Origin: Peptococcaceae bacterium BICA1-7
Lineage (GTDB): Bacteria; Bacillota; Desulfotomaculia; Desulfotomaculales; Desulfocucumaceae
Direction of reading: 5' to 3'
Assembly (NCBI GenBank): GCA_000802095.1
Contig: JUEB01000023.1
Coordinates: forward strand, 1 to 64,000
DNA: 64,000 bases
The stretch's first letter is position 1, and the number at the start of each line of letters is the position of its first letter. The notes under the pieces are model-generated. The model saw nothing but the letters and a program-made list of their open reading frames with translations, was not told where the DNA came from and searched no databases. This document shows, piece by piece, positions 1,886 through 55,554 of the stretch. The position numbers were made by a program, and so were the translations under genes.

Positions 1886-3358
1886 TCACACCGCCTTCTG
1901 TTCTGGTAGGGTGGGCATGACGTACGCCGTCTTGTGCTTCATCATCCCGTAGATGATGTTGACCAGCCTTCTCATGACGCACACCAGGGCCTGGACCTTG
2001 GTCTTGCCCTCCCTGATTTTCCGCTGGTAGTAGTCGAGAAACACCGGGTTGCGGGGTATCCCCGACCCCTTGGACACCTGCACCTGCTGGATGGCCAGGA
2101 AGTAGAAGATGCCGTGGAGCTCCCTGTTGCCCTGCTTGCTTTTCTGATCCTTCCCCTTGCCTGCGGAGCTGAACTTTATGGGAGCGATGCCCGCGAACCT
2201 GGCCAGCTTGTCGGCACTGGAGAATCTCGATATGTCGCCAATCTGGGAGACCAGGGCGCAGGCCGTGACGGTGTCAATCCCCGGCATTGTGTCGAGCCTG
2301 TACCCCAGCAGGTCCACGGTCCTCTTCAGCTCTTTTTCCACCTCTCCGATTTCCTTTTTCTTGAACCTGACGTCCCTGACGATGCTCCTGACGATGAAGT
2401 CCCTGGCCTCCTGGTACTCCCTTTTCGTCTCTCCGTCCTTTTCAACGAGGGCCAGTATCTTTTTGGCCTTGTTGGTGGAGCAGGCGTTGTGGCTGTGGCT
2501 TCTGAGTAGCACCGCCAGATCCTCAACCAATGTGTCGGACAGCAGGTGGGGGGAGGGGTACTCCTCCCAGAAGGCCAGGGCGGTGTTGCCGTCCACGTCG
2601 GAGAAGAACTTGCGGTAGCTGGGGTAGTGGTGGGCCAGTTGGTTGTGCAGTTGGTTAACCAGGGCGGTGACGGCCTTCACCAGGGCGGCGTCGGTTACCT
2701 CGGGCCTCAGGGGAACCTCCCTGACCTTGCCGCCCTTGCCGGTTACCGTCAGGCTTCCGGTGAGGAGGTCGAGGTTCCTCAGGCGTATGCCGCAAAGCTC
2801 GCTGACCCGGACGCCGGTGTACAGCAGCGCCATGACGATGGCCCTGTCCCTGGGGCTGACCCCGCCGCCCCGGACGAAGTGGAGCAGCCTCTCGATCTGC
2901 CCCTCGGTGTACACCTCCACCTGCCTTTCGCTCCCCGAGGCCACCCTGACCCTGTCCCTGCGGGGGTCCACCACGGTCTCCTCCATGAGGCCAGTGGCTA
3001 CGAGGTGCCTGTTGAAGCTGGCCAGGCTGTTGACCTTCTTGTTGACTGTGGCGGCCTCGTAGCCCCTCTCCAGCAGGTGGTTCCTGAAGCCGGTGATGTG
3101 GGACCTTTTGATCTGTCCGGTGAATCCCTCGCCCACGTCACTGAGGTGGGCCAGAAATCCGGCAACGTCTCCGGCGTAGCTTTCGATGGTCTTTGGGCTT
3201 TTGCCGTCCTCGGCAAGGCGGCGGCGGAAGCTCTCCACGTATTCCTCCGGGGCTGCCGGAGTCTCCGCTGTTGTTCCTGTGGGCAGTCTTTTTGGAGGGG
3301 GGATTACGAGGGTATGGACAGCCCCGCTCCGGTGCCCCTGCGGGCAAATTTTTTGCAC
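1886..3358 (-). CDS. in-frame chimera: tyrosine recombinase N-half / IS110 transposase C-half
   Basis: This is one uninterrupted frame. GTG at 3358 is chosen because AAAGGAGG lies 8 bases upstream; an ATG at 3382 would put that site inside the gene. Counting from the ATG frame, residues to about 235 are a tyrosine recombinase, with a core-binding domain, the GVRVSEL arginine and the GKGGK lysine. The HxxR and tyrosine motifs are missing. From about residue 241 the sequence is the second half of an IS110 transposase: LHNQLAHHYPSYRKFF, the MPGIDTVTACALVSQIG helix-hairpin-helix, and the GIAPIKFSSAGKGKD to KQGNRELH block that holds the catalytic serine of this family. The RuvC-like DEDD domain of IS110 is absent. 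Neither half keeps a complete active site, so it is probably a deletion fusion. A new function is possible but not shown. Confidence 0.8.
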   Translation of the reverse strand: MQKICPQGHRSGAVHTLVIPPPKRLPTGTTAETPAAPEEYVESFRRRLAEDGKSPKTIESYAGDVAGFLAHLSDVGEGFTGQIKRSHITGFRNHLLERGYEAATVNKKVNSLASFNRHLVATGLMEETVVDPRRDRVRVASGSERQVEVYTEGQIERLLHFVRGGGVSPRDRAIVMALLYTGVRVSELCGIRLRNLDLLTGSLTVTGKGGKVREVPLRPEVTDAALVKAVTALVNQLHNQLAHHYPSYRKFFSDVDGNTALAFWEEYPSPHLLSDTLVEDLAVLLRSHSHNACSTNKAKKILALVEKDGETKREYQEARDFIVRSIVRDVRFKKKEIGEVEKELKRTVDLLGYRLDTMPGIDTVTACALVSQIGDISRFSSADKLARFAGIAPIKFSSAGKGKDQKSKQGNRELHGIFYFLAIQQVQVSKGSGIPRNPVFLDYYQRKIREGKTKVQALVCVMRRLVNIIYGMMKHKTAYVMPTLPEQKAV

Positions 3359-3419
3359 TGTGGTTTCCTCCTTTCCGGGCATGGAAAAAGGCCAACGGTT
3401 TGGTTTCCGTTGGCCCTGG
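2660..3419. repeat. direct repeat, recombinase copy B versus copy A
   Basis: This stretch repeats 1-760 at a constant offset of 2659 bases. The first 556 bases are essentially identical, about 120 bases around 3216-3340 are diverged, and the leader with its hairpin is again nearly identical. Upstream of the hairpin similarity fades, with short shared blocks near 3440 and 3510. The patchy pattern suggests gene conversion between two copies. Confidence 0.8.
3383..3415 (-). terminator. terminator-like hairpin in recombinase B leader
   Basis: The same 9-bp stem as at copy A: GGCCAACGG (3390-3398) and CCGTTGGCC (3407-3415), followed on the minus strand by TTTTT and then the ribosome binding site. 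It would stop read-through from the RHS/immunity operon into the chimera unless relieved. Confidence 0.6.
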
Positions 3420-3555: not shown

Positions 3556-3939
3556 CTAATCTGCAACATTGACCTCTATCATCTTACATGCTACTCTAAT
3601 GAATACCCCATCAATTAATTTTAGATTAACCTGACGCCATTCATCATCAATATTTTTTCGTCCTCCTCCAGGCAGAGGCTGTTTTCCGTACAATGTTTTT
3701 ACAGTTTGAAGAGATTCATTTATTAAATCTCCTTTTTCATCTATCTTAATACTTTCAATAGTAGCCTCATCCCAATGACCAATAATATTTAGACCAATAT
3801 AATCTTTACAGCATATATAAAGAGAATTTTTATCCTCACTGTCGATAATCTTAATGCAAACCTTACCAAAATCCATTTCAATTTTTTCTAGTTGCCAATC
3901 TGCCCAACTACTATTGTTAATTTTCTCAACAAATCTCAT
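3556..3939 (-). CDS. probable immunity protein for the RHS toxin
   Basis: This 127-residue soluble protein has a clear ribosome binding site (AAGGAGGG, 6 bases before ATG). It begins 18 bases after the RHS gene stops, so the two are co-transcribed. It is rich in beta-strand-like segments (IEMDFGKVCIKIID, LNIIGHWDEATIESIKI), as seen in many small immunity proteins, but I do not recognise a named family. It has no signal peptide, which fits a cytoplasmic protein that neutralises the cognate toxin in the producer and its siblings. The role is inferred from position. Confidence 0.6.
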   Translation of the reverse strand: MRFVEKINNSSWADWQLEKIEMDFGKVCIKIIDSEDKNSLYICCKDYIGLNIIGHWDEATIESIKIDEKGDLINESLQTVKTLYGKQPLPGGGRKNIDDEWRQVNLKLIDGVFIRVACKMIEVNVAD

Positions 3940-3957
3940 ATATTCCCTCCTTGTTTA

Positions 3958-6900
3958 TTATGGCAACCACAATTCGTCATCGAAGAATGACTGAGGTATA
4001 GTTGTTTTGTCACTACCCCATGGTCCTGAGGTAACATTTTTTCTTCTTTCAATATGAATGTGGTCAACCGAATGATCAGGATTTTTGGGTCCAATATAAT
4101 TAGGATCTTCAGGATGAGCTTTTTCCATTCTTACCCTTAGAGGACCTTTACTGTCATTTCCATAGTATTTTCCACCTTGCTGCGTCATTTTCTTTAAATT
4201 CTCTTGCAATGCGCCCTTTGTTGCTGGCAAGACCTCTCCATGTGGAGTTACAATGAAATCAGCTTTACCCGCCCCCTCTTTACCCACAATAAATTCAAGA
4301 GCATCTAAAGTTACTTTTTTACCTAATATTCGCTGGCCCAAATAACCACTGACTCCTGCTGGCGGTCCTGCAGATATGTATATTTGAGCATCTAATTCAT
4401 TTGGCGATACAAAGTTTATTACTGGCCCAATTACTGGTGCATTTTTCGCTTCTTCCACGAAGTTCTTTGTTGCACCCGGCGCTTCATTAATAAAAATTAC
4501 AACACCGTACTTAGCTTCATTCACCGCTTGATTCCAGTCGATATTGTTCAAACCTCTACGAGCACTGTCGACACCTTCATTAAGACCATCCCAGAAATTG
4601 ATTGCTACCAATACTCCGGGAGGTCTCTCAGACTTAGGACAATCCTCTACCCAACGTAGCCCCAGCGGATCCACATACCTCAACGGGTTATTCAGCACAT
4701 ACGGATACGGGTTCAGCGTTCCCGGCTGAGTCAGGTTTCCGGCCCAGGGGTCCTGGGAGATGAACCTGCCTACCTCAGGCTGGTAGTACCTGGCCTGGGC
4801 GTAGTACAGCTCGGCGAAGTGGTCGTAGGTGTAGCCGGTGTAAGCTATGGCGTTGTCGGGGCCGGACCAGTTGGGGTCCAGCTTTACCGCTCCCAGAGGA
4901 CGGCCGAATTCGTCGTAGTTGTAGTGGGCCGAGGTCTTGCCGCTGCTGCCGATGACCTTGTTTACTGTACCCAGGTCGTCGTGCTGGTAGTACAGGGTGT
5001 CCCACTGATCCACGTAGGCCGTTTCGGTCCCGGAGGGTATCCAGCCGTTGTCGTGGTCATCCAGGGCTATGAAGTCCGTGCTAATCAGTTCCAGGCCGTA
5101 GGTGTAGCGCTGGATCTGGCTGTGCTCTCCGTAGCTCATGAGCAGGTTGTCGTAAGCTTTTGTGTAGTCCACCACGTTGTGCTGGGCCATATAGTGCCGG
5201 TTGAACTGCTGGCCCCAGCCGGGCTTCGGGTTGCCTGCGTGTGACGGCGGCCCGGGATTTTTGTTCTTCAATTCCTGCACGAACTCCGGCGGGCCGCCGG
5301 GTCCCGGCGGGAACTCCGGACGGTTGTTGTTTTCGGCCCCGTGGTTGAGGTCGGTAATTACCTGTATCCTCCTGCCCAGGCCGTCATAGGTGTAGGATGT
5401 TTTGTCCCCGAATTTGTTTATGGCCTCAATCAGCCGGTTGGCGGCATCAAAGGAATAGGTGTTGAATACCCTGTCACCGCTTCTTATTTCGGTAAGGTTG
5501 CCCCTGTTGTCGTAGCTGAGGTCTTTTACGTCCCCGTCGTGGTCCTTTATTCCGGTGAGCCTGTTCAGCGAGTCATACCTGTAATACTTTGCCCCGGTTT
5601 TATCCTGCTCACGCTCAACCATGGCCACCCGGTTGCCCAGGGTGTCGTAGTAATAGCTCCTGCCGCCGCCGTTAGCCTCGCTGACACTGACAAGCTGATT
5701 CAGGGCGTCGTAGGCAAATGTTTTTTCCTCGTTTTCCTCCAGTTCGTACTCATCGGTCTTACATTTCTGTACAGCGGTTTTATTTCCTGCCGGATCGTAT
5801 TCATACCGGAAAGAATCGGTTGTATTTCCCCCGGGGTCCCTTTGGGTGAGGGAGATAATGCGGTAAATATCATCATAGTCACGCACCGTTTTGGACCCGT
5901 TGGGCAGCTGCGTTTCCACCAGTCTGCCGGCGGGGTTGTAGAGGTAAGACGTTGTCCTGTTAAAAGCATCTGTAACACCGGTCAAACGGTCCAGCTGGTC
6001 AAATTGATAGGTTACCCTACTGTCGTCCGGGTAGGTTATGCTCTCTTTCTGCCCAGTGGCGGTCCAGGTGAACTGCTGCACCCGCCCGGCAAAGTCGGTG
6101 ACCTTCTTTATTCTTCCCAGGGGGTCCAGCTCAAAGCTGTTTGTGCCCAGCCAGTCGGTCATGCCGGTGACATAGCCCTGGGCGTTGTAATCCAGGCTGA
6201 CCTGCCTGCCATCGCCATATTGTATGCCGGTCAGCTGGTTGTTTAAATCATAATTAAGGGCTGTTGAGTAGCCGTCCCTGTCTTTTATCTCTACCAGGTT
6301 GCCGGCGGGGTCATAGCCGTATCCGGTAACGTGTCCTGCTGCGTCCTCCACCGCCACCAGCAGGTTGCGCCTGTCGTAGCGGTAGTAGGTGGGCTGGAGG
6401 ATAGTGCCCCCGTCCAGAAAATCTCCCGGGCCGTAAACGCCTTCACTCACGCTCTCGCCGGCATTTTCCGCTTCCTCCGGCACGTCTCTCTCTTCCGTAT
6501 CACCGCTGTCCTGCCCGCTTTCAGGTCCATAAACGTCATCCGTGACGGTTTCCCCTTCTTCCTCCCCGGGCAGGCCGTAAACTGCTCCGGTGACACTGGC
6601 CGTGTCGACCTCAATGGCTGCAAGGACTTCCGGGGTGATGGAACGGTACCGGCTCACGGCGGAAAGATTGCCTACCGCATCGTATTGGTATTCAGTATTG
6701 TTGCCCAAGGCGTCTATTACTTCCGTCAGCCGCTTCAGAGGGTCGTAGTGGTAAGAGGTGGTATTGCCGTTGAAGTCGGTTACGGATGCCACCTGTCCCC
6801 GGGGAGTGTACTCAAAGCTGCGGCTTTGGCCCAGGGCGTCGGTTATTCTATCTATTTGGCCCAGAGGGCTATAGTTATACGAGGTTCTGCTGCCCAGGGG

Positions 6901-9900
6901 ATCAACTGCTTCGGTCACCCTGCGGTTGCTATCGTAGCTCCAGCCATAGCGGTTCCCCTCGGGGTCCTCCCGGCCGGTAAGGTTGCCCACCGGGTCATAC
7001 TCCATCTGCCAGACCGCCCCGTTGGCCCGGGTGTGTGCCACAACCCTGTCCATCAGGTCGTAGGAATACTCCTCGGTGTTACCCAGTTCGTCGGTGACGC
7101 TAACCACCCTGCCGGCGTCATCGTAGCTGAATTTTTTACCAAAGCCCAGCGGGTCGGCTATCTCGGTAATCCTGCCCAGGATGTCGTAAGTATAGGCGGT
7201 TGTGTTCCCCAAAGGCTCTTTAACCGAAACCAGCCGGTTTAGCTCATCATAGCCGTATTCTGTAACCGCGCCCCGGGGGTTTGTCTCCCTTAGCAGGTTG
7301 TTGTTGGGGTCGTACTCATAACTTGTATCATTGCCCTCGGGGTCGGTGACGGTGGTGAGACGGTTCAGCTCATCGTAGCCGTAAACCGTCCGGCTGCCGT
7401 TGGCGTCGACAAAGGCGGTAACATTACCGCATTTATCATACTCATAGCGGGATACATTATTATTCGGGTCCACTACTTTTACTATCTGGTCCGCCCCGTT
7501 GTAATGATAGGTGGTGACATACCCCTCCTCGTCGGTGACCGTTTCTATCTTGCCATTGTCATCGTAGGTGTAGGTTTTACTATTATTCTCCGCATCGGTC
7601 ACCCGGGTGGCCATATTGTTGCCATCGTACCCCACTGCTGTGACGCTGCCCTCCGGATCGGTTACCCGCCTTACCCGGTTGGCGGCGTCGTAGTCGAAGT
7701 TGGTGGCGCTGTTCAGGGCATCCACCATTTCCCTGAGGTTGCCGGCCGTATCATATTCAAAGGAGGTTACGGCGCCGTCGGGCACGGTGATGGATTTAAC
7801 CATTCCCCTTTCGTCGTAGGAAATTTCCGTAGCCCTGCCCAGGGGGTCGGTGGTTTTCAGCAGGTTGCCGGCCTGGTCATATTCGTAAAGGTGCTGTTTG
7901 CCGTCCGGAAGTGTCATGGAAACAGGCTTATTCAAATCATTATAGGCAAATGCGGTGGCCCTGCCCGCCGGGTCGGTAGCCAGAGTGACATTTCCGCGCC
8001 CGTCGTACTGATAATTGTAGGTGTACCCCTTCTTATCCGTGCGGGACGTCACGTTATCATCGTCGTCATAGGTAAAGCTCTCTTCCTGTCCCAGGGCGTC
8101 AATACTCTTTACCATCCGGAATTTATCGTCGTAATGGTAAACAGTGGCCCTCCCCAACTGGTCGGTCAGGGTGGTTGTTTTGCCTCTGTCGTCGTAGTCA
8201 AACAGGGTCACTCCGCCCCGGGGGTCCGTTTGCTCAACCACTCTGCCCTTTTCGTCATATTTATTTATATAGCTGCCGTCTCCCCTGGGACTGCGGATAC
8301 GGGTCAGGTGGAATTTATCGTCATATTCGTAGGTTATTGTTTCCCCCTCGGGCCCGATGAAGGATGTCAGGTTTAAACTGCTGTCATAGCCATACTGAAC
8401 AGAACGGCCGCTCTGATCGGAAATACCGGTAATGTTACCCGCCTGGTTATAGTCAAGCGTCAGGCTTCCGCTTGCTGTTTTTATTTCTACCAGCTTCAGC
8501 CTGTCGTAAGTAAGCCCGGTACTGTTGCCGTTGGGGTCGGTGATTTCAACCAGAAAACCAGCCCGGTTGAAGGTGTAAACGGTATTATCAGGCATGGTCA
8601 GGGTGTATGTATCATTGGCGTGGCTCTCCAGCCTGTTATAAACGCCTGCGGGCGCCTGATAGTTGGTGGTGCCCCCTTCACGGGTATAATTCTCCCGGTG
8701 GCCATCGGCAAAGATTGCTTCAATTTCACCGCTGCGGTGTATAAGCAGCCGGTGCTCGAAATTGTGGTGCCAGTTCATTCCCAGCCGGCCCAGGTAACTG
8801 TCCCTGCTGTTATAGAAGCGGGCGAATTTTATGGGAAAGACTCCGGCCACTTCCAGGTCGGTGTGTTTGTGGATGTAGTTGCCGGTGGCAAGGTTTACCG
8901 GGTCTGCGCCAGCACCGTTGCAGCTGATATGTTCTGATCCCAGGAAAAACGCCTCTATCAGCGAGATCAGCCACTGGGGTATTTCCCTTAACACATTGGT
9001 TTGTGGATCGTGAATCAGCAGCCGCCAGTATTCCGTCAGAGCATATTCGTCGGTTTTGCTGTTGACCCCGGGCTGAATGCCGTTATCCCCGGCTATGTCA
9101 TGCAGCCTGTCGTAATCACCGCAAAACTGCTCGGCAATTGTCCCCAGGGTATCCCCTGGTTGGACGATATATTTTAGGAAGTCCAGCCTGCCTGATATTC
9201 TCTTTTCAACTAAAACCTTTATTTTTTTAGGCTTGCCATCCGAGCCTGTAACTGTTTTTTCTACCCAGATAAACCTGACAGCGGTTATTTCATAATAGGT
9301 TAATTCCGGTATCTGCACATCCAGGGTCCAAGTGGTGCCGCTTATGCTTGCCCGGCTTGTTTCTCCATTTACGGTAACCTCAACCCTGTCTACGTCCTCA
9401 TCAGAGTCCAGGGGCCCGTACACCACAAAGGTATCCCGGGTTTCATCACCGTTTGGCCCCTCAGCCTCCAGGTTGGGGGCTATGTTGATATCGCTGGTGG
9501 GGTGGCTGCTGACTATTACAGTGATGCTGGAGGGATATACTGACCAGTCCGGCTCGCCGGGGGTGGAAGGGGGCAGGGGCCTGGCTTCTATTTTATAGAG
9601 GCCGTCCTCCACCATGTTCCCGCCGTCGTCCTTTCCGTCCCACGTCTCGCTGTTTTCCACAAAGCCGCCGGGATATGTTTTGGCTGCTACCAGGGTCCTG
9701 ATTAGCTCATTCTTCTGGTTAAATATTTTTACCCAGGCGGTCTGCTGGTGTTCAAAATTCCACATTATCTCGATGGTTCCGCCTTCAGTGGGGTTGTAAA
9801 CAGACGGGTCTAATTTTATATATTTTACCGGGGGGCTGCCGCCCGCCTGATCCTGCGCCCAGACACTTGCGGCAATAAAGGTAGCAGTGACAAGCACTAC

Positions 9901-9945
9901 CAGTACAGACGCCAGTATAGTTAATTTGGATTTGATTTTTACCAT
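3958..9945 (-). CDS. secreted LysM/RHS-repeat polymorphic toxin
   Basis: The 1995-residue protein starts at ATG after GAGAGGGGGAG. Domains in order: signal peptide (about 1-30, ending AASVWAQ); a FlgD-like Ig region; a second Ig-like region; a LysM peptidoglycan-binding domain (about 257-302, IVQPGDTLGTIAEQF); a DUF6531-type entry (about 340-420, NLATGNYIHKHTDLEV); tens of YD repeats to about 1690; the RHS core motif (YYQPEVGRFISQDPW, then YVLNNPLRYVDPLGLRW, ending near 1763); and a variable C-terminal domain of about 230 residues. RHS proteins form a shell that releases the C-terminal toxin. This tip ends in a His/Asp-rich block (HPEDPNYIGPKNPDHSVDHIH) that looks like a metal-dependent nuclease centre, but I cannot name its family. 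The Sec signal plus LysM points to a Gram-positive WapA-like, wall-associated toxin. A 23-base gap links it to the upstream SLH gene. Confidence 0.88.
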   Translation of the reverse strand: MVKIKSKLTILASVLVVLVTATFIAASVWAQDQAGGSPPVKYIKLDPSVYNPTEGGTIEIMWNFEHQQTAWVKIFNQKNELIRTLVAAKTYPGGFVENSETWDGKDDGGNMVEDGLYKIEARPLPPSTPGEPDWSVYPSSITVIVSSHPTSDINIAPNLEAEGPNGDETRDTFVVYGPLDSDEDVDRVEVTVNGETSRASISGTTWTLDVQIPELTYYEITAVRFIWVEKTVTGSDGKPKKIKVLVEKRISGRLDFLKYIVQPGDTLGTIAEQFCGDYDRLHDIAGDNGIQPGVNSKTDEYALTEYWRLLIHDPQTNVLREIPQWLISLIEAFFLGSEHISCNGAGADPVNLATGNYIHKHTDLEVAGVFPIKFARFYNSRDSYLGRLGMNWHHNFEHRLLIHRSGEIEAIFADGHRENYTREGGTTNYQAPAGVYNRLESHANDTYTLTMPDNTVYTFNRAGFLVEITDPNGNSTGLTYDRLKLVEIKTASGSLTLDYNQAGNITGISDQSGRSVQYGYDSSLNLTSFIGPEGETITYEYDDKFHLTRIRSPRGDGSYINKYDEKGRVVEQTDPRGGVTLFDYDDRGKTTTLTDQLGRATVYHYDDKFRMVKSIDALGQEESFTYDDDDNVTSRTDKKGYTYNYQYDGRGNVTLATDPAGRATAFAYNDLNKPVSMTLPDGKQHLYEYDQAGNLLKTTDPLGRATEISYDERGMVKSITVPDGAVTSFEYDTAGNLREMVDALNSATNFDYDAANRVRRVTDPEGSVTAVGYDGNNMATRVTDAENNSKTYTYDDNGKIETVTDEEGYVTTYHYNGADQIVKVVDPNNNVSRYEYDKCGNVTAFVDANGSRTVYGYDELNRLTTVTDPEGNDTSYEYDPNNNLLRETNPRGAVTEYGYDELNRLVSVKEPLGNTTAYTYDILGRITEIADPLGFGKKFSYDDAGRVVSVTDELGNTEEYSYDLMDRVVAHTRANGAVWQMEYDPVGNLTGREDPEGNRYGWSYDSNRRVTEAVDPLGSRTSYNYSPLGQIDRITDALGQSRSFEYTPRGQVASVTDFNGNTTSYHYDPLKRLTEVIDALGNNTEYQYDAVGNLSAVSRYRSITPEVLAAIEVDTASVTGAVYGLPGEEEGETVTDDVYGPESGQDSGDTEERDVPEEAENAGESVSEGVYGPGDFLDGGTILQPTYYRYDRRNLLVAVEDAAGHVTGYGYDPAGNLVEIKDRDGYSTALNYDLNNQLTGIQYGDGRQVSLDYNAQGYVTGMTDWLGTNSFELDPLGRIKKVTDFAGRVQQFTWTATGQKESITYPDDSRVTYQFDQLDRLTGVTDAFNRTTSYLYNPAGRLVETQLPNGSKTVRDYDDIYRIISLTQRDPGGNTTDSFRYEYDPAGNKTAVQKCKTDEYELEENEEKTFAYDALNQLVSVSEANGGGRSYYYDTLGNRVAMVEREQDKTGAKYYRYDSLNRLTGIKDHDGDVKDLSYDNRGNLTEIRSGDRVFNTYSFDAANRLIEAINKFGDKTSYTYDGLGRRIQVITDLNHGAENNNRPEFPPGPGGPPEFVQELKNKNPGPPSHAGNPKPGWGQQFNRHYMAQHNVVDYTKAYDNLLMSYGEHSQIQRYTYGLELISTDFIALDDHDNGWIPSGTETAYVDQWDTLYYQHDDLGTVNKVIGSSGKTSAHYNYDEFGRPLGAVKLDPNWSGPDNAIAYTGYTYDHFAELYYAQARYYQPEVGRFISQDPWAGNLTQPGTLNPYPYVLNNPLRYVDPLGLRWVEDCPKSERPPGVLVAINFWDGLNEGVDSARRGLNNIDWNQAVNEAKYGVVIFINEAPGATKNFVEEAKNAPVIGPVINFVSPNELDAQIYISAGPPAGVSGYLGQRILGKKVTLDALEFIVGKEGAGKADFIVTPHGEVLPATKGALQENLKKMTQQGGKYYGNDSKGPLRVRMEKAHPEDPNYIGPKNPDHSVDHIHIERRKNVTSGPWGSDKTTIPQSFFDDELWLP
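6410..6620 (-). other. acidic VYG-repeat insertion in the RHS shell
   Basis: Residues about 1110-1180 of the RHS protein break the YD-repeat pattern. They form a strongly acidic, Pro/Gly-rich linker with three VYG repeats (AVYGLPGEEEG, DVYGPESGQDS, GVYGPGDFLDG). YD repeats resume directly after it (YYRYDRRNLL). It may be a flexible loop or cleavage site in the shell; this is inference. Confidence 0.6.
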
Positions 9946-9968
9946 GCCGGTACTCCCCCTCTCATTCT

Positions 9969-11849
9969 TTACAGGCTGTTACGCTGATCCAGGAACTGAT
10001 AAAGCATTACCGCGGCTTCTGCCCTGGTGGTGTTGTCCTGGGGCCGCAGGTTCTTCCCGTCGCCCTTTATTACTCCTCCGGCCACGGCCGTGTTCAGGGC
10101 CTCCCGGGCCCAGCCGCTGATGCTGCCGCTGTCTTCAAAATTCCCCAGGCAGTCCCGCCTCACCGTTTCAATACCGCCATACCTTATAATCATCGCGGCC
10201 ATTTCCTCCCTGGTGATGGGCTGGTCAGGATAAAAGAGGTTGCCCGGGTAGCCGCCCACCCAGCCGTGCTGCCTGGCTGCTTGAATGGCACTGCAGGCCC
10301 AGTGGCCCTCCGGCACGTCCAGGAAGCTTTCGCCGCCCTTCTTCTCCAAGCTCGGACCGCTGCAGCTCGCCAGTATGGCCGTAAACTCCGCCCTGGTTAT
10401 CTGCCGGTCGGGCCGGAAGGTATTGTCGGTGTAGCCGTTGATTATTCCGTGAGAGGCCATTACCTCCAGGTACCGTTTACCCCAGTGATTTAACGTATCG
10501 GTAAAAGCCGCCTGCTTTATCAGCACAGCCACAGGCGACATACTATCCACTACCGAAAGGATTACTTCACCCTTCCTGACCAGGGGCAGGCACATCCATT
10601 TTCCATTCCTGTTCTGAAAAACAGCCGCTTTTTTGGGATCATCGCCTGCCAGCCTGCAGGTTATGGCTATACTCAAGGGCTTTTGTAAAGTGGAATCTCC
10701 CCCATCCAGCCAGTACACCGGTGAAACCCGAGTAAACCCGGGTATTTCATATGCGTCTTGCCAGGGAATAATATTTACATCCTTTCCGAAAGTACCCGGC
10801 TCAAAGGTAAATACAGCCAGTCCGTCCGGGGAGCTTACGGTACACTGCTGGTCCGACTTTATCAGTACGGGTTCCGCATTTACAGCTGTTTTATCCGGGA
10901 CTGCACCGGCAGCGGAGTCTGCCGCCGGAATCACCTGGGAGTTCATTTTGCCCCCCTCCAGCCATACCACTTCATTTCCCTGCAATTGCACGCTGCGGGG
11001 GTCGGCTGCACCAATTTGCAAAGGGGTTTCCACCCCGGTATTTATATTAAGAGCTGAAAATCCGCCATTCTCACTGATAATGATGTACCCGCCGGATAAG
11101 GCCACCGGCATGGCGCTGCCGCTTCCCGTGGCAATTGTGCTGGCGCTGTTGGTGGCGGTGTCCAGCAGCTTCACCTGATAGCTCCCCTGGTCGTTTTCCG
11201 CCCAGGCTACCCTGCCGTTATCCGCCACCAGATACAGGTTCACAGCTTTTCCCGAGGTAACCCGGGTTTCTGTTTGTGTGCTCACGTTGTATGCGTATAA
11301 GTCGTTGCCTCCGTTTCTGAAGTCCACCCAGGCCGCCGCCTCCCCGTCAAAGACAAGTCCGAAGGCCTGGGAGCCGTCTGAAGAGATCTTTTTTTGAGTT
11401 CCGGAGGTTATATCGTACTGGTATACATCCTTTTTACCCCAGTCATGGTCGGTCCAGATCACCCTGCCGTCCCTGATCAACGGCTCCCGGTGATCACCTG
11501 GTGTTTGTGATATTTTTTTTTCAGTCTGGTCTTCGGTATTGTACAGATAAATGTCAAAGCTGCCGGTAGCCGGGTTTTCCCGGCTGTCCTGCCAGACAAT
11601 ATATTTTCCCTGTATGTCAGGAAAACCCTGAACACCGGGATTATCAGTTATTCTGGTAACAGTGCCGGATCCGGCGTCCTTCATGAATACATCCCAGTTA
11701 CCCTGATACCAGCCCATGTAGACCAGCCTGCCGCCGTCCATCCCGGCACCGTCCCCCGGCTGGGGGTAATCGGCACCCGCCGCTGATATGCCGGCAAAAG
11801 ATACATTGATCAGCAAAGCGACACTTAACAGAAAGAATAATTTTTTCAT
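9969..11849 (-). CDS. TolB-like beta-propeller protein with C-terminal SLH domains
   Basis: ATG at 11849 is preferred over 11870 because AGGGGAG sits just upstream of it and inside the longer frame. The 626-residue product has a signal peptide (KKLFFLLSVALLINVSFA), then about six propeller-like repeats of the TolB/DPP type (YMGWYQGNWDVFMKD, IVWQDSRENPATGSFD, VIWTDHDWGKKDVYQY). A ZU5-like region follows (SPDGLAVFTFEPGTFG), then three SLH domains from about residue 450 (HWGKRYLEVMASHGIINGY and two more). SLH domains bind pyruvylated wall polymer, so this is a cell-surface protein. It is the first gene after the c-di-GMP riboswitch and lies 23 bases before the RHS toxin gene, so the two surface proteins are made together. 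It could display or dock the toxin; that is inference. Confidence 0.85.
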   Translation of the reverse strand: MKKLFFLLSVALLINVSFAGISAAGADYPQPGDGAGMDGGRLVYMGWYQGNWDVFMKDAGSGTVTRITDNPGVQGFPDIQGKYIVWQDSRENPATGSFDIYLYNTEDQTEKKISQTPGDHREPLIRDGRVIWTDHDWGKKDVYQYDITSGTQKKISSDGSQAFGLVFDGEAAAWVDFRNGGNDLYAYNVSTQTETRVTSGKAVNLYLVADNGRVAWAENDQGSYQVKLLDTATNSASTIATGSGSAMPVALSGGYIIISENGGFSALNINTGVETPLQIGAADPRSVQLQGNEVVWLEGGKMNSQVIPAADSAAGAVPDKTAVNAEPVLIKSDQQCTVSSPDGLAVFTFEPGTFGKDVNIIPWQDAYEIPGFTRVSPVYWLDGGDSTLQKPLSIAITCRLAGDDPKKAAVFQNRNGKWMCLPLVRKGEVILSVVDSMSPVAVLIKQAAFTDTLNHWGKRYLEVMASHGIINGYTDNTFRPDRQITRAEFTAILASCSGPSLEKKGGESFLDVPEGHWACSAIQAARQHGWVGGYPGNLFYPDQPITREEMAAMIIRYGGIETVRRDCLGNFEDSGSISGWAREALNTAVAGGVIKGDGKNLRPQDNTTRAEAAVMLYQFLDQRNSL

Positions 11850-11867
11850 CCCGCTGTCTCCCCTTTT

Positions 11868-11912
11868 CAAAAAATAAAAAACCTGTCCCAGATAACCGGT
11901 CAGGTTTTTTTA
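11868..11912 (-). terminator. riboswitch expression-platform terminator
   Basis: On the minus strand AACCTG and CAGGTT flank an inner CC/GG pairing, and T runs follow (TTTTTTATTTTTT). It sits between the c-di-GMP aptamer and the ribosome binding site of the SLH gene. The 3' end of the aptamer (CCGG...GGTTTT) can pair with the left arm (AAAACCTGACCGG), so aptamer folding and termination compete or cooperate. Confidence 0.8.
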
Positions 11913-11943
11913 ACAATTATGATATATTTACGCTGCAGGAAAA

Positions 11944-12071
11944 CCAACCCGGCAACCCAGCTGTCATAGTCATACCGGTACCCGAATTTAGAACTCTGGA
12001 GTCGGAAAGTACCTGTGACCTTAGACCTGTGGCTTTGCGTACCCGCCTTTAGGTCGGGTTTGCCTTTTTCG
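11944..12071 (-). ncRNA. cyclic-di-GMP-I (GEMM-I) riboswitch
   Basis: The minus strand carries the class hallmarks: GGCAAACC at the 5' side of P1; a first hairpin CCCGACC-TAAA-GGCGGG; then the highly conserved ACGCAAAGCCACAGGTCTAA block; a long second arm; and TGGGTTGCC closing P1 (GGCAA pairs with TTGCC). An intrinsic terminator follows about 30 bases on. Pairing of the 3' P1 strand with the terminator's left arm suggests that ligand binding favours termination (an OFF switch), but the direction is inferred by eye. Confidence 0.88.
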
Positions 12072-29420: not shown

Positions 29421-30212
29421 CTATATTGTTTTGTCCCAGGTATCAAAAAAGTGGTTTACCGGGCCGGGCCCCTGCCCCACCTTAAAGGAGTGCCTGATGG
29501 CCCCGGTGATATACTCCTTGGCTTTGGTTACCGCCGGCAGCATGCCCAAACCCCTGGCCAGGTACGCCGCTATGGCCGAGGAAAGGGTACAGCCGGTGCC
29601 GTGGGTATTGTCGGTATCAATTCTTTCAGCCTCCAGCAGATGATAGCTGCCGTCATAAAAGACATCCACAGCCCTGCCGGAAAGGTGGCCTCCCTTAACC
29701 AGCACATTTTTTACTCCCATTTCAAAAAGAGCCCGGGCCGCCCTTTTCATAGCCTCAATATCCTTAATAGTAGTTTTAGTAAGAATCTCTGCCTCGGGTA
29801 TATTGGGCGTCACAATACCGGCCAGGGGTAGGAGTTTTTGGGTCAGCGCGCCTATAGCCCCGCTGCTGATCAGCATAAAGCCGGTGGAGGTGGTGATCAC
29901 CGGGTCCAGCACAACCTTTTCCACCCTGTACCGCCGCAGTATCTCCGCAACAAAGCCGATGCTCTCAGCCGATGACAGCATGCCTATTTTTACAGCATCG
30001 GCGCCAATATCAGACAGCACAGCCTCAAGCTGGCCTTTTACCATTTCCGGGTTTATGTCCTGCACCCCAAAAACCCCCAGTGAATTCTGGGCTGTTACAG
30101 CCGTTATAACAGTAGAGGCATACACCCCCAGCGCCGAGAAAGTCTTTAAGTCGGCCTGTATACCCGCCCCCGCCCCGGAATCAGACCCCGCAATAGTCAG
30201 TGCCCTGATCAA
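29421..30212 (-). CDS. thiD: hydroxymethylpyrimidine / phosphomethylpyrimidine kinase
   Basis: A 263-residue ribokinase-fold protein with ThiD markers: IAGSDSGAGAGIQADLKTF at the N-terminus, AVKIGMLSSAE, LDPVITTSTG, TPNIPEAEIL, LVKGGHLSGR and DTDNTHGTGCTLSSAIAAYLA with the catalytic GTGC anion hole. It makes HMP-pyrophosphate for thiamin synthesis. A TPP riboswitch precedes it, consistent with feedback by thiamin pyrophosphate. Confidence 0.95.
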   Translation of the reverse strand: MIRALTIAGSDSGAGAGIQADLKTFSALGVYASTVITAVTAQNSLGVFGVQDINPEMVKGQLEAVLSDIGADAVKIGMLSSAESIGFVAEILRRYRVEKVVLDPVITTSTGFMLISSGAIGALTQKLLPLAGIVTPNIPEAEILTKTTIKDIEAMKRAARALFEMGVKNVLVKGGHLSGRAVDVFYDGSYHLLEAERIDTDNTHGTGCTLSSAIAAYLARGLGMLPAVTKAKEYITGAIRHSFKVGQGPGPVNHFFDTWDKTI

Positions 30213-37279: not shown

Positions 37280-40200
37280 TTATTCTTGCCTGGCCCACGT
37301 TTGGAATTCACCTCTTCTATTATATATTCTATACAGGAGCACAGATGCTTCCGCTCTGGTGGTATTGCCCATGGGATCAACCTGACCACCACTGCCGGCT
37401 ATCAAACCTTCCTTTACTAAAGAGGCGACGCTGTTCAATGCATAGGATGCTATAAGGGATTTGTCGGCAAATTTATCCAGATCGGAAACCGTGCCCTGCT
37501 GTTCCACTTTACCCAGCAGCCTTAGTGCCCTCTCGGTCAGTACCATCATGTCCTGTCTGGTAATGCCTGCGTCAGGGTTAAATTTGTTGTCTCCGATACC
37601 ACCGGAGATACCAAGTTTTTTCGCTATGGCTATCTCCTTATAGTAATAGGCATCACTACTTATATCATCAAAGTTACCATCGAACCTTGCATTGACACCA
37701 AGGGTTCTGAACAGAAAGTAAAGGAAATCTGCCCTTGTGATGTTACTTTGAGGGGCGAATTCTTTTTCCGATGTGCCCTTCAATATCCCTTTGGACGTAA
37801 GCGCCTCGATTTGCTCCCTCGCCCATTCCGCACCGCCCAGGTCGACGAAGGTTTTATGCACATAGGCTACGGCATAATGGCTGAAATGGGTGCAGATAAA
37901 AGTCACGGCGCCGGTGACAGGGCCGTAGCGGCCGCTGGGCACCGGGACCGGGCTGCTGCTGCCGTCGATATACCACACTACAATATGATCGGGGTCGGCC
38001 TGTTCTTCCGCTATCGGAGTATATGGGATGGATACTGTCACCGGTGCATCGGGGTTGTTCCACTCCGTCCGTTCTCCGTCCACCATAAGAGTAAGCTGCA
38101 CCAGTGGCCTGTCGCCTATGGCTGCCTTCACTTGGTCAGTCAGACCCGTTTTGTCGCCCTGACCAATGGTGATGCCGGCTTTTTCTCCATTGAATCCCGA
38201 AAACATGTTGCCCGGTATGGCAATGCTGCCCATTTCAGTGGAAAAAGTCAGTGTGCCTTCCCCCCGGGAGCCTGACAGGGTGGACGCAGGAATTTCCATG
38301 GTATAGGCCTTCACTCCCGGGATGGCGGGAACGTTTAAGACAGCAGATCCTTGGCCGTTAAAAATACTCCCGGCTACACTTCCCAGGTCCACCGTTGCGC
38401 TGCCCGCTTCAGCATTGACCTTGACCGCCAGGGTTGTTTCGTTTGCATCTGTTCCGGTAAAAACCGCAGTGTAAGTTGGCGAAGCGGCTCGGGTTCCGCC
38501 GCCGCTATGGTGGCTATGGGGCGTTAACCACTGGGCATAGACTGTTATGTCGGCGTTGACGATGGTATCTTCCGTGAATTGGTCACCGCTGCCGTCACCC
38601 GCCTTGTTCCATCCGGTAAATGTTTTACCCGGACAGGTGGGAGATACCGGCAGACTTCCTGCCCTATTGCCTCTTACTATTGCCTTCTGGCCGGGATTTG
38701 CCCCGGTATCCCCGCCATTTTCATCAAAGGTTACCCACACCAAATCTGCAGGAATAAGAACAGGATAACCGTCGTTGGAACCGGCAACTATGCTCCATAC
38801 TGAAAATATACCCTGCTTGTTTGCTTCAAGCAGATCGCCAAACTCCTGGCTTTTCATCTGAACGGAGGTTTTTGCCGGAGCCCGTTCCGCCGCCAGGGGA
38901 ATGGCAGTGCCGCCTATACCAGTCAGGTTGGCGTCACTGTTCCAATAGCCATAGGATATGTAATGACTGACGTCTCCCTCTTCCTTACCCGCGAAACCTC
39001 CAACTAAAGCCCCGGTTCCTCCCGTCACCCCGCCTGTGGAATAACAGTTTGCAGTCAGAGAGTAGTGATTATATCCTGCGATACCTCCGGCATTTGAACC
39101 GTCCCCGCCTTCCACGTCGCCCCTGGCATAGCTGTTATTAACATAGCTGTTGACACCGCTTATGTATCCAATGAGCCCGCCGGCGGATGAAAAATCCCCG
39201 CCTGTCACCTTTCCTTGGGCGTAGCTTTCGTATACCTCGCCGGAACTGCTGCCTATCAGTCCCCCTGTATATGCATCTGCACCGGCTCCGCCTGTCACGT
39301 CTCCTTCCGCGTGGCTTTGGTTTACCTCTCCCGCATTGTTTCCGATCAAACCGCCGGAATAGGAACCATCCCCGCCTGTTGTAATTCCTTTGGCATAGCT
39401 TTCGGAGACAATGCTGTCAGCATCATTGTCTCCGATAAGTCCTCCGATATATGAAAGTGGACCGGCACCGCCTGTTACAGCGCCGTCTGCATAGCTTTCA
39501 GATATCAGGCCGGAATTATTCCGTCCAATCAGTCCGCCGGTATCTGAGCCATCCCCGCCTTCCACATCTCCTTCCGCATAGCTTCCTGAAACATTGCCGG
39601 AATTATTCCACCCAATCAGCCCGCCGATACTTGAATTATCCCCGCCTGTAACGTCCCCTCCTGCATGGCCGTCCAATATCTGGGATAATTCATTATAGCC
39701 AATCAGTCCGCCGATATATGAAGAACCCCCGCCTGATACATCTACTTCCGCGCTGCAGTCGGAAATATTACAACCTGACATTGACCCTATCAAGCCGCCC
39801 AGATAGCCGTCACTTACTCCCGTAACTCCCTGTGTATGGCAGCCTGTAATAGTGGCGCCCGCAACTTTACCCGCCAGGCAGCCCGCATATGATACCGGGG
39901 ATAAATACATTTCAGTATCCTGTATTATGACATCCCGGATGGTTGAATTAACAACATATCCGAAAAGGCCGGCGTAATCCAGGCTTGTTTCGGGGGTGCC
40001 GGGGCTGCCGATGGTCATATTTGATATCTCCCAGCCGTTGCCGTTAAATCTTCCAAAAAAGTGGTGCGCCGCATCCCCTATGGGAACCCAGTAATAGCCG
40101 GAAAGGTCTATGTTCTGGCCCAGTTCGATTACAGCACCGGAAAGGTCTGCGCCGCTGTTCACCTGCTCCGCTATCCAGGCCAGTTCCGAAGCATTTTGGA

Positions 40201-40351
40201 TGCTGTAGACATTACCAATAACGGTTGCCGGTACAGTGGCATGGCCAGTCCAGTAGTCGGCAGGGTCGGCCTGCGCCGGCCCCGCCAAAACCAGCGCCGA
40301 CACCGCCAGGAAAAAGGCCATAAAAAAGCCCAAAAATCTTATTTTTTTCAC
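37280..40351 (-). CDS. SLH surface protein with GLUG repeats
   Basis: The 1023-residue protein starts with a signal peptide (FLGFFMAFFLAVSALVLA). Residues about 30-500 hold about a dozen GLUG-type repeats (YIGGLIGYNELS, IGGLIGWNNSGNVSGSYAEG, SYIGGLIGDND), a beta-solenoid found in secreted adhesins. An InlB-type B repeat follows (FDENGGDTGANPGQ to ITVYAQW), then a beta-sandwich region ending FTHFSHYAV-like. Near-complete SLH domains form the C-terminus (GGAEWAREQIEALTSKGILKG, then KKLGISGGIGDNKFNPDAGI, then LNSVASLVKEGLIAG). It is anchored on the wall polymer and is probably an adhesin. It lies downstream of the other giant SLH genes but has its own terminator-bounded unit. Confidence 0.87.
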   Translation of the reverse strand: MKKIRFLGFFMAFFLAVSALVLAGPAQADPADYWTGHATVPATVIGNVYSIQNASELAWIAEQVNSGADLSGAVIELGQNIDLSGYYWVPIGDAAHHFFGRFNGNGWEISNMTIGSPGTPETSLDYAGLFGYVVNSTIRDVIIQDTEMYLSPVSYAGCLAGKVAGATITGCHTQGVTGVSDGYLGGLIGSMSGCNISDCSAEVDVSGGGSSYIGGLIGYNELSQILDGHAGGDVTGGDNSSIGGLIGWNNSGNVSGSYAEGDVEGGDGSDTGGLIGRNNSGLISESYADGAVTGGAGPLSYIGGLIGDNDADSIVSESYAKGITTGGDGSYSGGLIGNNAGEVNQSHAEGDVTGGAGADAYTGGLIGSSSGEVYESYAQGKVTGGDFSSAGGLIGYISGVNSYVNNSYARGDVEGGDGSNAGGIAGYNHYSLTANCYSTGGVTGGTGALVGGFAGKEEGDVSHYISYGYWNSDANLTGIGGTAIPLAAERAPAKTSVQMKSQEFGDLLEANKQGIFSVWSIVAGSNDGYPVLIPADLVWVTFDENGGDTGANPGQKAIVRGNRAGSLPVSPTCPGKTFTGWNKAGDGSGDQFTEDTIVNADITVYAQWLTPHSHHSGGGTRAASPTYTAVFTGTDANETTLAVKVNAEAGSATVDLGSVAGSIFNGQGSAVLNVPAIPGVKAYTMEIPASTLSGSRGEGTLTFSTEMGSIAIPGNMFSGFNGEKAGITIGQGDKTGLTDQVKAAIGDRPLVQLTLMVDGERTEWNNPDAPVTVSIPYTPIAEEQADPDHIVVWYIDGSSSPVPVPSGRYGPVTGAVTFICTHFSHYAVAYVHKTFVDLGGAEWAREQIEALTSKGILKGTSEKEFAPQSNITRADFLYFLFRTLGVNARFDGNFDDISSDAYYYKEIAIAKKLGISGGIGDNKFNPDAGITRQDMMVLTERALRLLGKVEQQGTVSDLDKFADKSLIASYALNSVASLVKEGLIAGSGGQVDPMGNTTRAEASVLLYRIYNRRGEFQTWARQE

Positions 40352-40609
40352 GCCATTAACCCCCTTAAGCCGGTTCCTCCCAACATCTCTTCCATCCTCC
40401 GCATCAATTCATCCAGTTGTGCTATGTAACAACACAATTCTGTTCCCCCTGGTAATATTTTATAGATTTTCACTTAACCATGACTTAACGGATTCTCAGG
40501 GTAAAAATGAAGAAAGCCTTTTCAATTGCAGACTTTCTTACCTATATGGAAATAAATTGTAATATAAATAATTCTTTTAAAAGAGTCGATTCTTAAAAGA
40601 GTCGACCTT

Positions 40610-40653
40610 AATAAGAACCCCCCGGCAATTCAATTTTCCGGGGGGTTCTTATT
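40610..40653 (-). terminator. terminator of the DUF6273/SLH gene
   Basis: AATAAGAACCCCCCGG and CCGGGGGGTTCTTATT form a perfect 16-bp stem with a 12-nt loop, 13 bases past the stop codon. The rest of the 314-base gap to 40351 holds a direct repeat of AAAAGAGTCGA at 40578-40604 and otherwise nothing I can assign. Confidence 0.9.
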
Positions 40654-40665
40654 ATAAATTTAAAT

Positions 40666-43600
40666 CTATTCAAGCGCGTTGACTATCATAGTAACGGCTT
40701 CAGCCCTGGTGGCCTTACCCCCGGGCCGGAAGGTGTTGTCCTGGTATCCTTTGATGATCCCGTCTTTCACCGCCATAACTATTGAATCATAGGCCCAGGC
40801 TGATATTTCCTTATTATCGTCAAAGGCAAGCTCTCCTGTTGCTCGGCTTATCTTTGCCGCCTTCACTGTCATCACGGCCATCTGCTCCCTGGTCACCGGG
40901 TCGTCGGGGCCGAAGCTGTTTTGGTCATAGCCGCCGATTATGCCGCTGGACGCCGCCGTGGCAATGACCTCCCGGGCCCAGTGGCCGGCGATGTCGGCAA
41001 ACGTTTTTTCACCCTTTCCCTGCAGCTTGAAGGCCTTGACCAGCATGGCGGTGAACTCGGCCCTGGTGATGCCGGCATCGGGTTTGAAGGTACCGTCGGG
41101 GTAGCCGCTGACCGCTCCCATTTCAATCAGTTTTTCAATATTCTTTTCCGCCCAGTGGCCAGCAATGTCTGTAAGGGAAGTGGCCGGCTTTGGCTCCGGA
41201 AGAGGGGCGTCTTCTTTGGCCAGTACGGCAAACCGGGTGAAGTGGTCCACGATGACGGTGACGGTGTTGCCGGAAACAGTGCCGCCTATGTCCACCCACC
41301 GTCCTTCGTTCTCATCGTAGTAATACACCGCAGGGGTTTCACCCGGGGCCAGTTTGGCGGGGTCGAAGGTGAAGGTCAGGGTCACCGGTTTATCGAAGCT
41401 GTAGTGGTCCTGCCCGTTGACGGTAAACTGGTAGGCAGTCCCCACTACCATGAGGCCTGAAGGCGCGGACGGGGGCGTGTCCACCTTCTGCACCGCCACC
41501 TGTACACGGTTATTGCCCTGCAGGGCGTTGGCAGGTATATTCAGAGTCACATCGCTGCCAAGGCTCACCGAGCCACCCGCCGCCGGATTAACTGAGGCCG
41601 CTCCGCTGGTGCTGCTGACCGGCTGGTTAGTATGCGTTGGGCCGCCGCCCCCGCCGCCGGAGGAACCGCCGCCGTTGACGCCTGTAGCACTAAAGGTCGC
41701 GCTTATGATATGGCTGGCGGTCACATTGTTGAAGGTGAAGGAGGATATGTCTCCCTGGTTGACCCCGTCAACAGTGACCGACGCAATACGGTAGCCGTCG
41801 GCAGGTGTTATGGTAAAGGTCTTGCTTCCTCCCTCAGTAACGGATACCGCTCCACTGGGACTGATACTGCCGCCGCTGCCGGCCGACGCAGTAATGGTGT
41901 ATGTCGGCACCGCAGAAGCGGCGTTCACTGTTACGCTGAGAGTGACTGTCAGGTCGACATCATTCGTGTTTACCACACCGTTTGGCAAGGTTATTGTTCC
42001 GTCCACCGTGAAGGTCTGCTCGGTGGTGACGGACGGATCGTAGGAGCAACCATATACAGCCCATGTCACGCTTGCGCTGACGTTTCCGACGTCGGTGACC
42101 AGCGTTACGTTATAGGGCAGGCCCAGTGCAATGGCTGTTTTCGCCGTGCCGTTCGCTACGCCGGTGATATCATTCGGTGCGGTAATACTCACCAGGGTTT
42201 TATCTGTAGTGGTGGCCGCGAGGACTGTCACGCTGATAGCCACCTCCAATGAAACACTGTCCGGGTTAATCACACCGCCTGGCAGGGCCGCTGTTCCGTC
42301 CACTGTGAAGGTCTGCTCGGTAGTGAAGGACGGATCGTAAGAGCAGCCATACACATCCCATGTCACGCTTGACTGTACACTTCCGTCATCGGTAACCAGT
42401 GTTACCGTGGAGGGCAGGCCGAGCGCAACGGCAGTTTTTGCCTTACCGTTGGCCACGCCAGCGATGTCCGTGGGAGCAGTTACACTTACCAGGATTTTAC
42501 CTGTAGGAGCTGCCGCATCCACCGTCAGGGATATATTCTCCGGCGTACTGGCAAAATCGGTTTGGTTATCTCCCTTTATTTCCTCGTTGAACAGCCGCAG
42601 GGTATAGGTTCCTTCCGGCATATCCGCCGGAAGCGTGATGCTGGCGGCGCCGTCCGGCGTTGCCGATCCGCCGGTCAAATCCACAAGTTTGCCATAGTAT
42701 TTTATGGTGTTGTTGGCACCCGTAATAACGCAGGAAACATATTTGTCCGTTCCCGTCACCGCGCCTGTATAGCCTATTGAAAGCGCGGCCCCAGGCCTGA
42801 CGGTTTTGGGGTTTTTGTTGCTTACGCTCAGGTTGAGGTTGCCGGTGTCCGTATCCTTCATGGTAAATTTCATCGCGCCGGTGGGCTGTGAAAACACCGA
42901 CAGGGCGGAGCCTGCTACACCGGGCTTGCCGCCTGCGGCGGGAGATGTGAAGAAGACGGGTTGCAGATTCATCCTAAAAGCGGGACGAAGGGCGTGGTAG
43001 TTAAAGACGCGGTTGGACGGGCTATCCCAATCAATATTGCCAGTTGAGTCGACAGAAAACGCTGCATAGTCGATATTGGCCGGAGAACGCAGCCACCAGC
43101 CGTCCGTTCCGCTGAATACACGTAGGTTTGACGGAAGCTGCCCGTACTCATATTCACTCAGCGGCCAAAATTTGGCGTCGTCAACCTGATCTCCGGCAAT
43201 CTTGTCGGGATCGTAGGGGAGGTTTTCGTCAACAACGTTGCCGCTGCCGCCCGCCAGGGTACGTCCCTGAACCAAATCCTTTTCCCTCGCTTCGGGAAGT
43301 CCGTTAAACGCGGATTCCATCGCGGTTTTCAGATCAGATATGCTGTAAAAGTTGCTGTGCGGGGCGCTTGCGTCAAATCTCAAACTACCGCCAAAGCTCT
43401 GACCATTTTGTAACAGCAGCGTCATGGTGTTGGCGGCGCTGTAGACACCCTGCCCGTTACTCCCGATAACCGCCCATTGCTTGCCCCCAAAGCCGATGAT
43501 AGCGTTGAGAGGTATGGAAGATGTCGTGCCGCCCGTGGTGAATTTATGATTGTTGACTGTCCTCATCACATTGTTCGCCTGGTCCTTGAAGCCCGAGATG

Positions 43601-46269: not shown

Positions 46270-46370
46270 GTCCATTCCTCCTCTATTCTGCGTAAAATAG
46301 CGTTTTGCCGTACAGCTTTGCCCGCTTATCACACATTTAACTGTCGATAAGCAATCCATTTTTGCATAAA

Positions 46371-46414
46371 ATAGTAGCATAAATGGGATTTTTGCGCATC
46401 GTACCAAAGTACGA
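46371..46414 (-). promoter_or_regulatory. promoter with palindromic box, DUF6273/SLH gene
   Basis: A palindrome TCGTACCAAAGTACGA (46399-46414) lies exactly 17 bases upstream, on the minus strand, of TATGCTACTAT (46381-46371), which looks like a -10 region. The same two blocks with the same spacing precede the LRR/SLH gene. The palindrome would sit at the -35 position, as expected for a LuxR-type activator. Confidence 0.65.
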
Positions 46415-46525
46415 CAAAAAAGCAAAACAGCGGCTATTTCCCTTGTTGAAAGAGCTGAATTATCCTTTAAATACCGCACTAATTCATCCCTTGCGCTTTT
46501 ATTACGCCATGCTGGGCGTACGATA

Positions 46526-46566
46526 AATAAGAACCCCTCAACAATAACTTATGAGGGGTTCTTATT
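46526..46566 (-). terminator. terminator of the LRR/SLH gene
   Basis: AATAAGAACCCCTCA and TGAGGGGTTCTTATT form a perfect 15-bp stem with an 11-nt loop, 12 bases past the stop codon. Its arms resemble those of the terminator at 40610, showing recent common origin. Confidence 0.9.
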
Positions 46567-46577
46567 ATAAACCAGAT

Positions 46578-49484: not shown

Positions 49485-49553
49485 TGTTTATTACCTCCCA
49501 TATTATTCAGTCTTCAATGTTAACGGCATATTCATTAGATCCTAAATATATTT

Positions 49554-49597
49554 ATGGTAGCATAGAACAGGAAACCACACATCGTACCAAAGTACGT
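49554..49597 (-). promoter_or_regulatory. promoter with palindromic box, LRR/SLH gene
   Basis: TCGTACCAAAGTACGT (49582-49597) lies 17 bases upstream of TATGCTACCAT (49564-49554) on the minus strand. This repeats the layout at 46371-46414 in box, spacing and -10-like block, although the sequence between differs. The start codon is 70 bases further on. Confidence 0.65.
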
Positions 49598-49632
49598 CAA
49601 AAAAAGACACGTGTAGGTTGTACACGTGTCTT
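49597..49632 (-). terminator. terminator of the first MalT-type regulator gene
   Basis: GACACGTGTA and TACACGTGTC form a 10-bp stem with a 5-nt loop, and the minus strand continues TTTTTTTGACG. The T-run abuts the palindromic box of the next promoter, so regulator and target units are separated by only a few bases. Confidence 0.85.
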
Positions 49633-49664
49633 CACCGTGGTGGTCGGCTGGAATGCCTGTCAGA

Positions 49665-52271: not shown

Positions 52272-52383
52272 TTTTGAAGATCTACCTCACACCTTGCTTT
52301 CTCTATCCATTATATATCGGTTTATATAGTTATTTTTTGGGTCTTTTTTCCCAAAAAGAAATATTTAAGTTGTTAGGGCAATG

Positions 52384-52425: not shown

Positions 52426-52466
52426 CTAAATTCCATTTAGTTAAGTCCGGTACCTGAAAATCTGAA

Positions 52467-55538: not shown

Positions 55539-55554
55539 CCTGCCACAAAAGCAG

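Follow-up and report, generated by a model that had tools for sequence, protein, structure and literature searches.

A c-di-GMP-I riboswitch upstream of an SLH-propeller gene and an RHS gene in Peptococcaceae bacterium BICA1-7: a candidate OFF switch for a polymorphic-toxin operon

The window analyzed here is a 64,000-nucleotide stretch of contig JUEB01000023.1 from Peptococcaceae bacterium BICA1-7. Its minus strand carries a c-di-GMP-I (GEMM-I) riboswitch aptamer at 12074-11948, which the Rfam covariance model RF01051 matches over its full length (1-87/87) with 69.2 bits (E 1.8e-11), against a curated gathering cutoff of 35 bits. This search bears out the minus-strand GEMM-I aptamer named in a preliminary description of the same DNA. 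The equivalents of G20, A47 (in CGCAAA) and C92 (in GCCG), the ligand-contacting positions in Vc2 numbering, are all retained. In GEMM-I aptamers, G20 goes with a preference for c-di-GMP over cGAMP. One hairpin arm is longer by 42 nt, shown by Rfam as an insert. The GNRA tetraloop of P2, which docks into a receptor and is a consensus feature rather than a strict requirement for membership, is absent from the window aptamer: UAAA replaces GAAA, with the model score still well above threshold. The same UAAA loop is found at G002:C45, and the remaining nine RHS-linked aptamers, a G002 remnant included, have GAAA. The non-GNRA loop and a bulge in P2 could lower the affinity of the window aptamer. 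By score and binding residues, the element is assigned to the c-di-GMP-I class; its chance placement was ruled out by the 69.2-bit score and by the presence of GEMM-I at orthologs of the downstream gene. The genome contains 27 GGDEF matches, which makes a c-di-GMP signal and its turnover plausible.

An intrinsic terminator hairpin of 35 nt (11910-11876, minus strand; -15.4 kcal/mol) with a U-rich tail lies 37 nt past the aptamer, close to the 11868-11912 given for it at first reading. It is followed by a gene (9969..11849, minus strand) with an annotated ATG at 11849, an alternative TTG at 11870 and a stop at 9969. The 626-aa product is predicted to be an SLH-anchored secreted beta-propeller protein, as had been proposed, on the basis of three SLH repeats (1.2e-40), TolB-type propeller repeats (TIGR04275) and its orthologs. 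An RHS gene begins 23 nt further on, exactly the gap reported before, and a small ORF follows the RHS gene after another 18 nt. The preliminary description had held that a transcription start between the terminator and the SLH gene would uncouple the operon. The SLH start lies only ~20 nt beyond the terminator tail, a gap too short to accommodate such a promoter. The SLH gene, the RHS gene and the small ORF are predicted to be co-transcribed as an operon, 11849-3556 on the minus strand.

The RHS gene (3958..9945, minus strand) encodes a 1995-aa RHS/YD-repeat protein laid out as a signal peptide, an FlgD-Ig domain (~9583-9741; FlgD_ig, 3.4e-8), a weak LysM match (~9046-9171; 0.0027), DUF6531 (1.1e-20), an RHS shell and a C-terminal tip. 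The 24 RHS repeats (RHS_repeat, 3.5e-178), the Rhs-associated core near the C-terminus (Rhs_assc_core, 6.8e-19) and the N-terminal hydrophobic signal identify it as an RHS/YD shell protein. The LysM anchor earlier attributed to it is below cutoff in the window but clear in the ortholog of genome G226 (3e-9). The variable tip of ~211 aa (3961..4593, minus strand) is a putative toxin domain of no known family, and the 127-aa product of the small ORF (3556..3939, minus strand) is a putative immunity protein by its position. Neither had a match in Pfam, NCBIfam, PADLOC or PDB sequences, and plasmid tblastn, genome searches and single-sequence AF2 found nothing that identifies the tip or the immunity candidate (pLDDT 42.5 for the tip; 52.8, mostly beta, for the ORF). 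The last 118 aa of the tip had no other occurrence among 398 genomes of the phylum, and the ORF had no relative among 113 genomes of the order. Of the immunity gene originally placed after the RHS gene, the ORF itself stands where it was expected; its label is positional and comes with no family match.

Other features of the window were recorded. Positions 1-777 and 1886-3398 hold near-identical copies of a XerD-type integrase N-terminus; at least 300 nt of them form an exact direct repeat with a spacing of 2659. The frame of the second copy continues into the C-terminus of an IS110-family transposase, giving a 498-aa hybrid ORF. Between the integrase repeats, 913-1982 on the minus strand contains two ORFs: 1524-1982, which is short and resembles a toxin tip lacking an RHS shell, and 913-1512, which encodes 199 aa. 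Neither had a significant family match, and the segment looks like an orphan toxin/immunity cassette adjoining the RHS operon. A TPP riboswitch (30361-30261, minus strand; 81 bits) upstream of a ThiD-type-kinase-like ORF (29421-30212) represents ordinary thiamine regulation. Large secreted proteins are encoded at 37280-56910 on the minus strand, several apparently with terminal SLH repeats (37280-40351, 40666-46479, 46578-49484 and 55555-56910), and two large LuxR/MalT-like regulators adjoin this cluster.

The arrangement at the operon has been retained in distant relatives. The SLH-propeller protein was searched for in 113 genomes of the order, and its propeller profile was then run over the 398 phylum genomes. 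Within the order, full-length relatives were found only in G112 and G017 (~46% identity), which belong to two other families, and full-length matches to the RHS N-terminal profile occurred only at the window, G112 and G017 loci. The phylum search added one full-length homolog, in G226, from another class that was sampled with three genomes only. In all four genomes with a full-length SLH-propeller gene, representing four families and two classes, the gene belongs to a unit of GEMM-I, terminator, SLH-propeller and RHS. The ortholog aptamers score 90.2 (G112), 90.7 (G017) and 83.1 bits (G226), and the SLH-RHS gaps are 17 nt, 50 nt and ~13 nt, respectively. G226 carries the unit on a single contig, with a 1941-aa RHS protein and a small ORF, followed by an orphan RHS core with a different tip and a second small ORF. 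The G017 RHS ortholog extends into a second contig (861 nt of identical overlap). The tip encoded there is a bacterial EndoU nuclease, at 32.7 bits with the cutoff at 25.3, and a frameshift appears in the assembled shell sequence immediately ahead of it. At least three orphan core/tip modules lie beyond this tip, with small ORFs between some of them. In this array (L239, G017:C43, 8338-15880, minus strand), which lies downstream of the riboswitch-controlled RHS gene, the tandem orphan RHS-core/tip modules have cores that are ~90-94% identical and tips that differ. A G112 contig gave a weak GIY-YIG match. In the sister species G002, beside the same redox genes, a decayed copy of the locus still has a transposase, part of the RHS tip region and a GEMM-I aptamer whose arm is lengthened in a similar way. 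Because orthologs in two classes retain the riboswitch-operon linkage, an origin by recent insertion was ruled out. Given the conserved pairing, the SLH-propeller protein may work together with the RHS shell as its anchor, display or docking partner, and in the window it would anchor or display the RHS protein.

Identity to the orthologs is 58-62% over the RHS shell, and the window tip is shared with no searched genome. A conserved shell, an unshared tip and nuclease tips in relatives together place the RHS set, by sequence pattern, in a polymorphic-toxin family. By extension, the window copy would be a toxin and the product of 3556-3939 would confer immunity to it. The RHS protein could instead be a structural, adhesive or wall-associated component, with c-di-GMP tuning surface architecture. 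Its SLH, FlgD-Ig and LysM-like surroundings are surface modules, neither the window tip nor the ORF after it could be assigned to a known toxin or immunity family, and a GEMM-I-linked RHS locus in G001:C36 has a weak wall-hydrolase-like domain (25.9 bits against a cutoff of 27). We consider this unlikely in view of the EndoU tip in the G017 ortholog, the orphan core/tip modules after the G017 and G226 RHS genes, the Tox-REase-7 tip of a GEMM-I-linked RHS protein in G096, and the pattern of the window protein itself, in which the tip is unshared while the shell is ~60% conserved.

GEMM-I aptamers also recur at RHS genes of other designs. Seven genomes of the window's family have 40 listed GEMM-I sites, six of which lie 5' of RHS/YD genes of several architectures: the window site, three in G001, one in G002 and one in G004. 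A seventh RHS-associated site in the family is the decayed G002 copy. About 0.1 RHS-linked sites would be expected by chance (Poisson ~2e-9 for six or more, or ~1e-7 for five independent sites with orthologs merged), an estimate that assumes a roughly guessed ~60 RHS genes among ~22,000 genes of the window's family (f1). The G096 site, before the RHS gene with the Tox-REase-7 tip, belongs to another family. When 44 RHS regions were fetched irrespective of riboswitches, GEMM-I was found upstream on the same strand in one (G096); control of this kind therefore does not extend to most RHS genes of the order. The GEMM-I-controlled RHS protein of G001:C22 (L158:647-6823) has an N-terminal subtilisin (Peptidase_S8, 1.3e-65), HEAT-like repeats and an RHS shell; this fusion is possibly a self-processing design. 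Two RHS-linked aptamers, L160:115-200 (G001:C36) and L168:5372-5466 (G096), have A in place of G at position 20. This residue is the signature of cGAMP-responsive (GEMM-Ib) aptamers, and these two might respond to cGAMP or to both ligands.

The recurrence bears on which genes the riboswitch governs. Control could stop at the SLH-propeller gene if the RHS gene and its partner were driven mainly by an internal promoter; GEMM-I often regulates surface or adhesion genes, the 1.9-kb SLH gene is large enough to contain a promoter, and a separate promoter may lie within the SLH or RHS gene. Against this, the SLH-RHS gap is 23 nt and the pair is retained in 4/4 orthologs, while GEMM-I stands immediately 5' of RHS, without an SLH gene, in G001:C22, G001:C36, G002:C45 and G004:C17. 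Sigma-70-like matches within the operon are also at chance level, with nine found against 8.2 expected. We give control of the SLH gene alone little chance of being the correct account. The claim of the preliminary description that a c-di-GMP riboswitch controls a polymorphic RHS toxin operon is well supported by the synteny in 4/4 genomes and by the recurrence at other RHS genes.

The direction of the switch was assessed from the leader. In minimum-free-energy (MFE) folds of window transcripts ending inside the terminator loop, 11953-11940 (the aptamer 3' strand, GCCGG-GUU-GGUUUU) pairs with 11908-11895 (the terminator 5' arm and loop, AAAACC-UGA-CCGGU), which disrupts the base of the aptamer; these strands constitute the predicted antiterminator. 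The full-length leader transcript folds with the terminator formed. In a first test, the antiterminator pairing was equalled by 3/150 shuffles, with the maximum over transcript ends taken for the real leader but not for the shuffles. A stricter null, using dinucleotide shuffles of the downstream segment with the same maximization applied to the shuffles, weakened the statistic to 5/100. Under this null, shuffles paired as well in 6/100 cases for G112, 2/100 for G002:C45, 1/100 for G001:C22 and 4/100 for G004, and the statistic was weak or absent in G017, G001:C77, G001:C36, G226 and G096 (22-49/100 shuffles pairing equally). Fisher combination of all ten leaders, done by hand, gave ~6e-4. In 10/10 leaders, the terminator lies 12-55 nt beyond the aptamer, without overlap.

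In the OFF switch Cd1 of Clostridioides difficile, terminator and aptamer coexist and both compete with the antiterminator (PMC9262584), and the class-I switches of C. difficile are reported to act as OFF switches (PMC6200980). The window leader has the same components: its terminator stands apart, downstream of the aptamer, and its predicted antiterminator recruits the 3' strand of the aptamer. From this Cd1-type layout and the C. difficile precedent, c-di-GMP is predicted to shut the operon off. At low c-di-GMP, the aptamer 3' strand would pair with the terminator 5' arm and allow read-through into the SLH, RHS and immunity genes. At high c-di-GMP, the bound aptamer would retain its own 3' strand, the terminator would form and the operon would be off. 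Toxin production would then fall in the low-c-di-GMP state, in which cells are motile and non-aggregated. An ON switch, in which c-di-GMP blocks termination and the toxin is made by attached cells, would be biologically natural as a coupling of attachment to contact-dependent killing. Some GEMM aptamers are ON switches, such as the cGAMP-sensing one of pilM, and roughly half of the leaders give the antiterminator no statistical support. In the pilM design, however, aptamer and terminator are mutually exclusive (PMC9262584), whereas the leaders analyzed here keep the terminator apart from the aptamer and beyond it in 10/10 cases, and truncated window transcripts fold with the 5' arm of the terminator paired to the 3' strand of the aptamer. 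The ON direction is therefore judged improbable. The preliminary description had implied that attachment favors competition; its link between riboswitch and operon is supported, but the direction is probably the reverse, as the leader geometry is that of an operon turned off at high c-di-GMP.

Taken together, we regard as likely a riboswitch-controlled operon for an SLH-propeller protein, an RHS polymorphic toxin and its immunity protein that is turned off at high c-di-GMP. Computed directly were the aptamer and terminator, the order of the genes and its conservation, and the known nuclease tips in relatives. The other parts of this reading, namely that the aptamer binds c-di-GMP, that the switch is an OFF switch, that the genes are co-transcribed, toxicity, immunity and the anchoring or display of the RHS protein by the SLH protein, we infer. 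The operon (11849-3556, minus strand) would then provide an S-layer-attached propeller, an exported RHS toxin with a replaceable tip and the cognate immunity protein, all behind a class-I riboswitch. On balance, the conserved four-part unit of aptamer-terminator, SLH-propeller, RHS toxin and immunity gene appears to belong to a previously unreported regulon, in which c-di-GMP-I riboswitches act directly on operons for surface RHS polymorphic toxins, with c-di-GMP as the off signal. The literature that could be searched yielded no link between c-di-GMP riboswitches and RHS or polymorphic toxins; the supplements of the two founding GEMM papers may contain an earlier listing. If the regulon reading is true, RHS warfare in these bacteria would belong to the motile state and not to the biofilm state. 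The predicted sign, off at high levels of the "settle down" signal, is the reverse of the intuitive expectation. A global lifestyle signal would be tied in cis by RNA to an interbacterial weapon, without a protein regulator. With a unit conserved across two classes and a repeated GEMM-I-RHS association, the timing of RHS toxin deployment becomes directly testable.

Several known systems share parts of this design. WapA/WapI of Bacillus subtilis is a Gram-positive RHS/YD toxin with a small downstream partner gene, and it resembles the window operon in its secreted RHS shell, variable C-terminal tip and small partner. The window protein differs in its FlgD-Ig/LysM N-terminus and GEMM-I leader, and WapA is not known to have riboswitch control or an SLH-propeller partner. 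Type VI secretion, as in Pseudomonas, also links this second messenger to the delivery of antibacterial effectors. Its control by c-di-GMP is indirect or runs through proteins, whereas in the window a riboswitch lies in cis on the toxin operon. The closest likeness at the RNA level is to Cd1 and other class-I OFF switches, with which the window leader shares the aptamer class, the separate downstream terminator, the antiterminator drawn from the aptamer 3' strand and the predicted OFF direction (PMC9262584; PMC6200980). Some C. difficile class-I targets are likewise surface proteins, such as the calcium-binding adhesion protein CD630_27970. The window differs from Cd1 in its extended hairpin arm, in the UAAA rather than GAAA loop of P2, and in its target, which is an RHS polymorphic-toxin operon.
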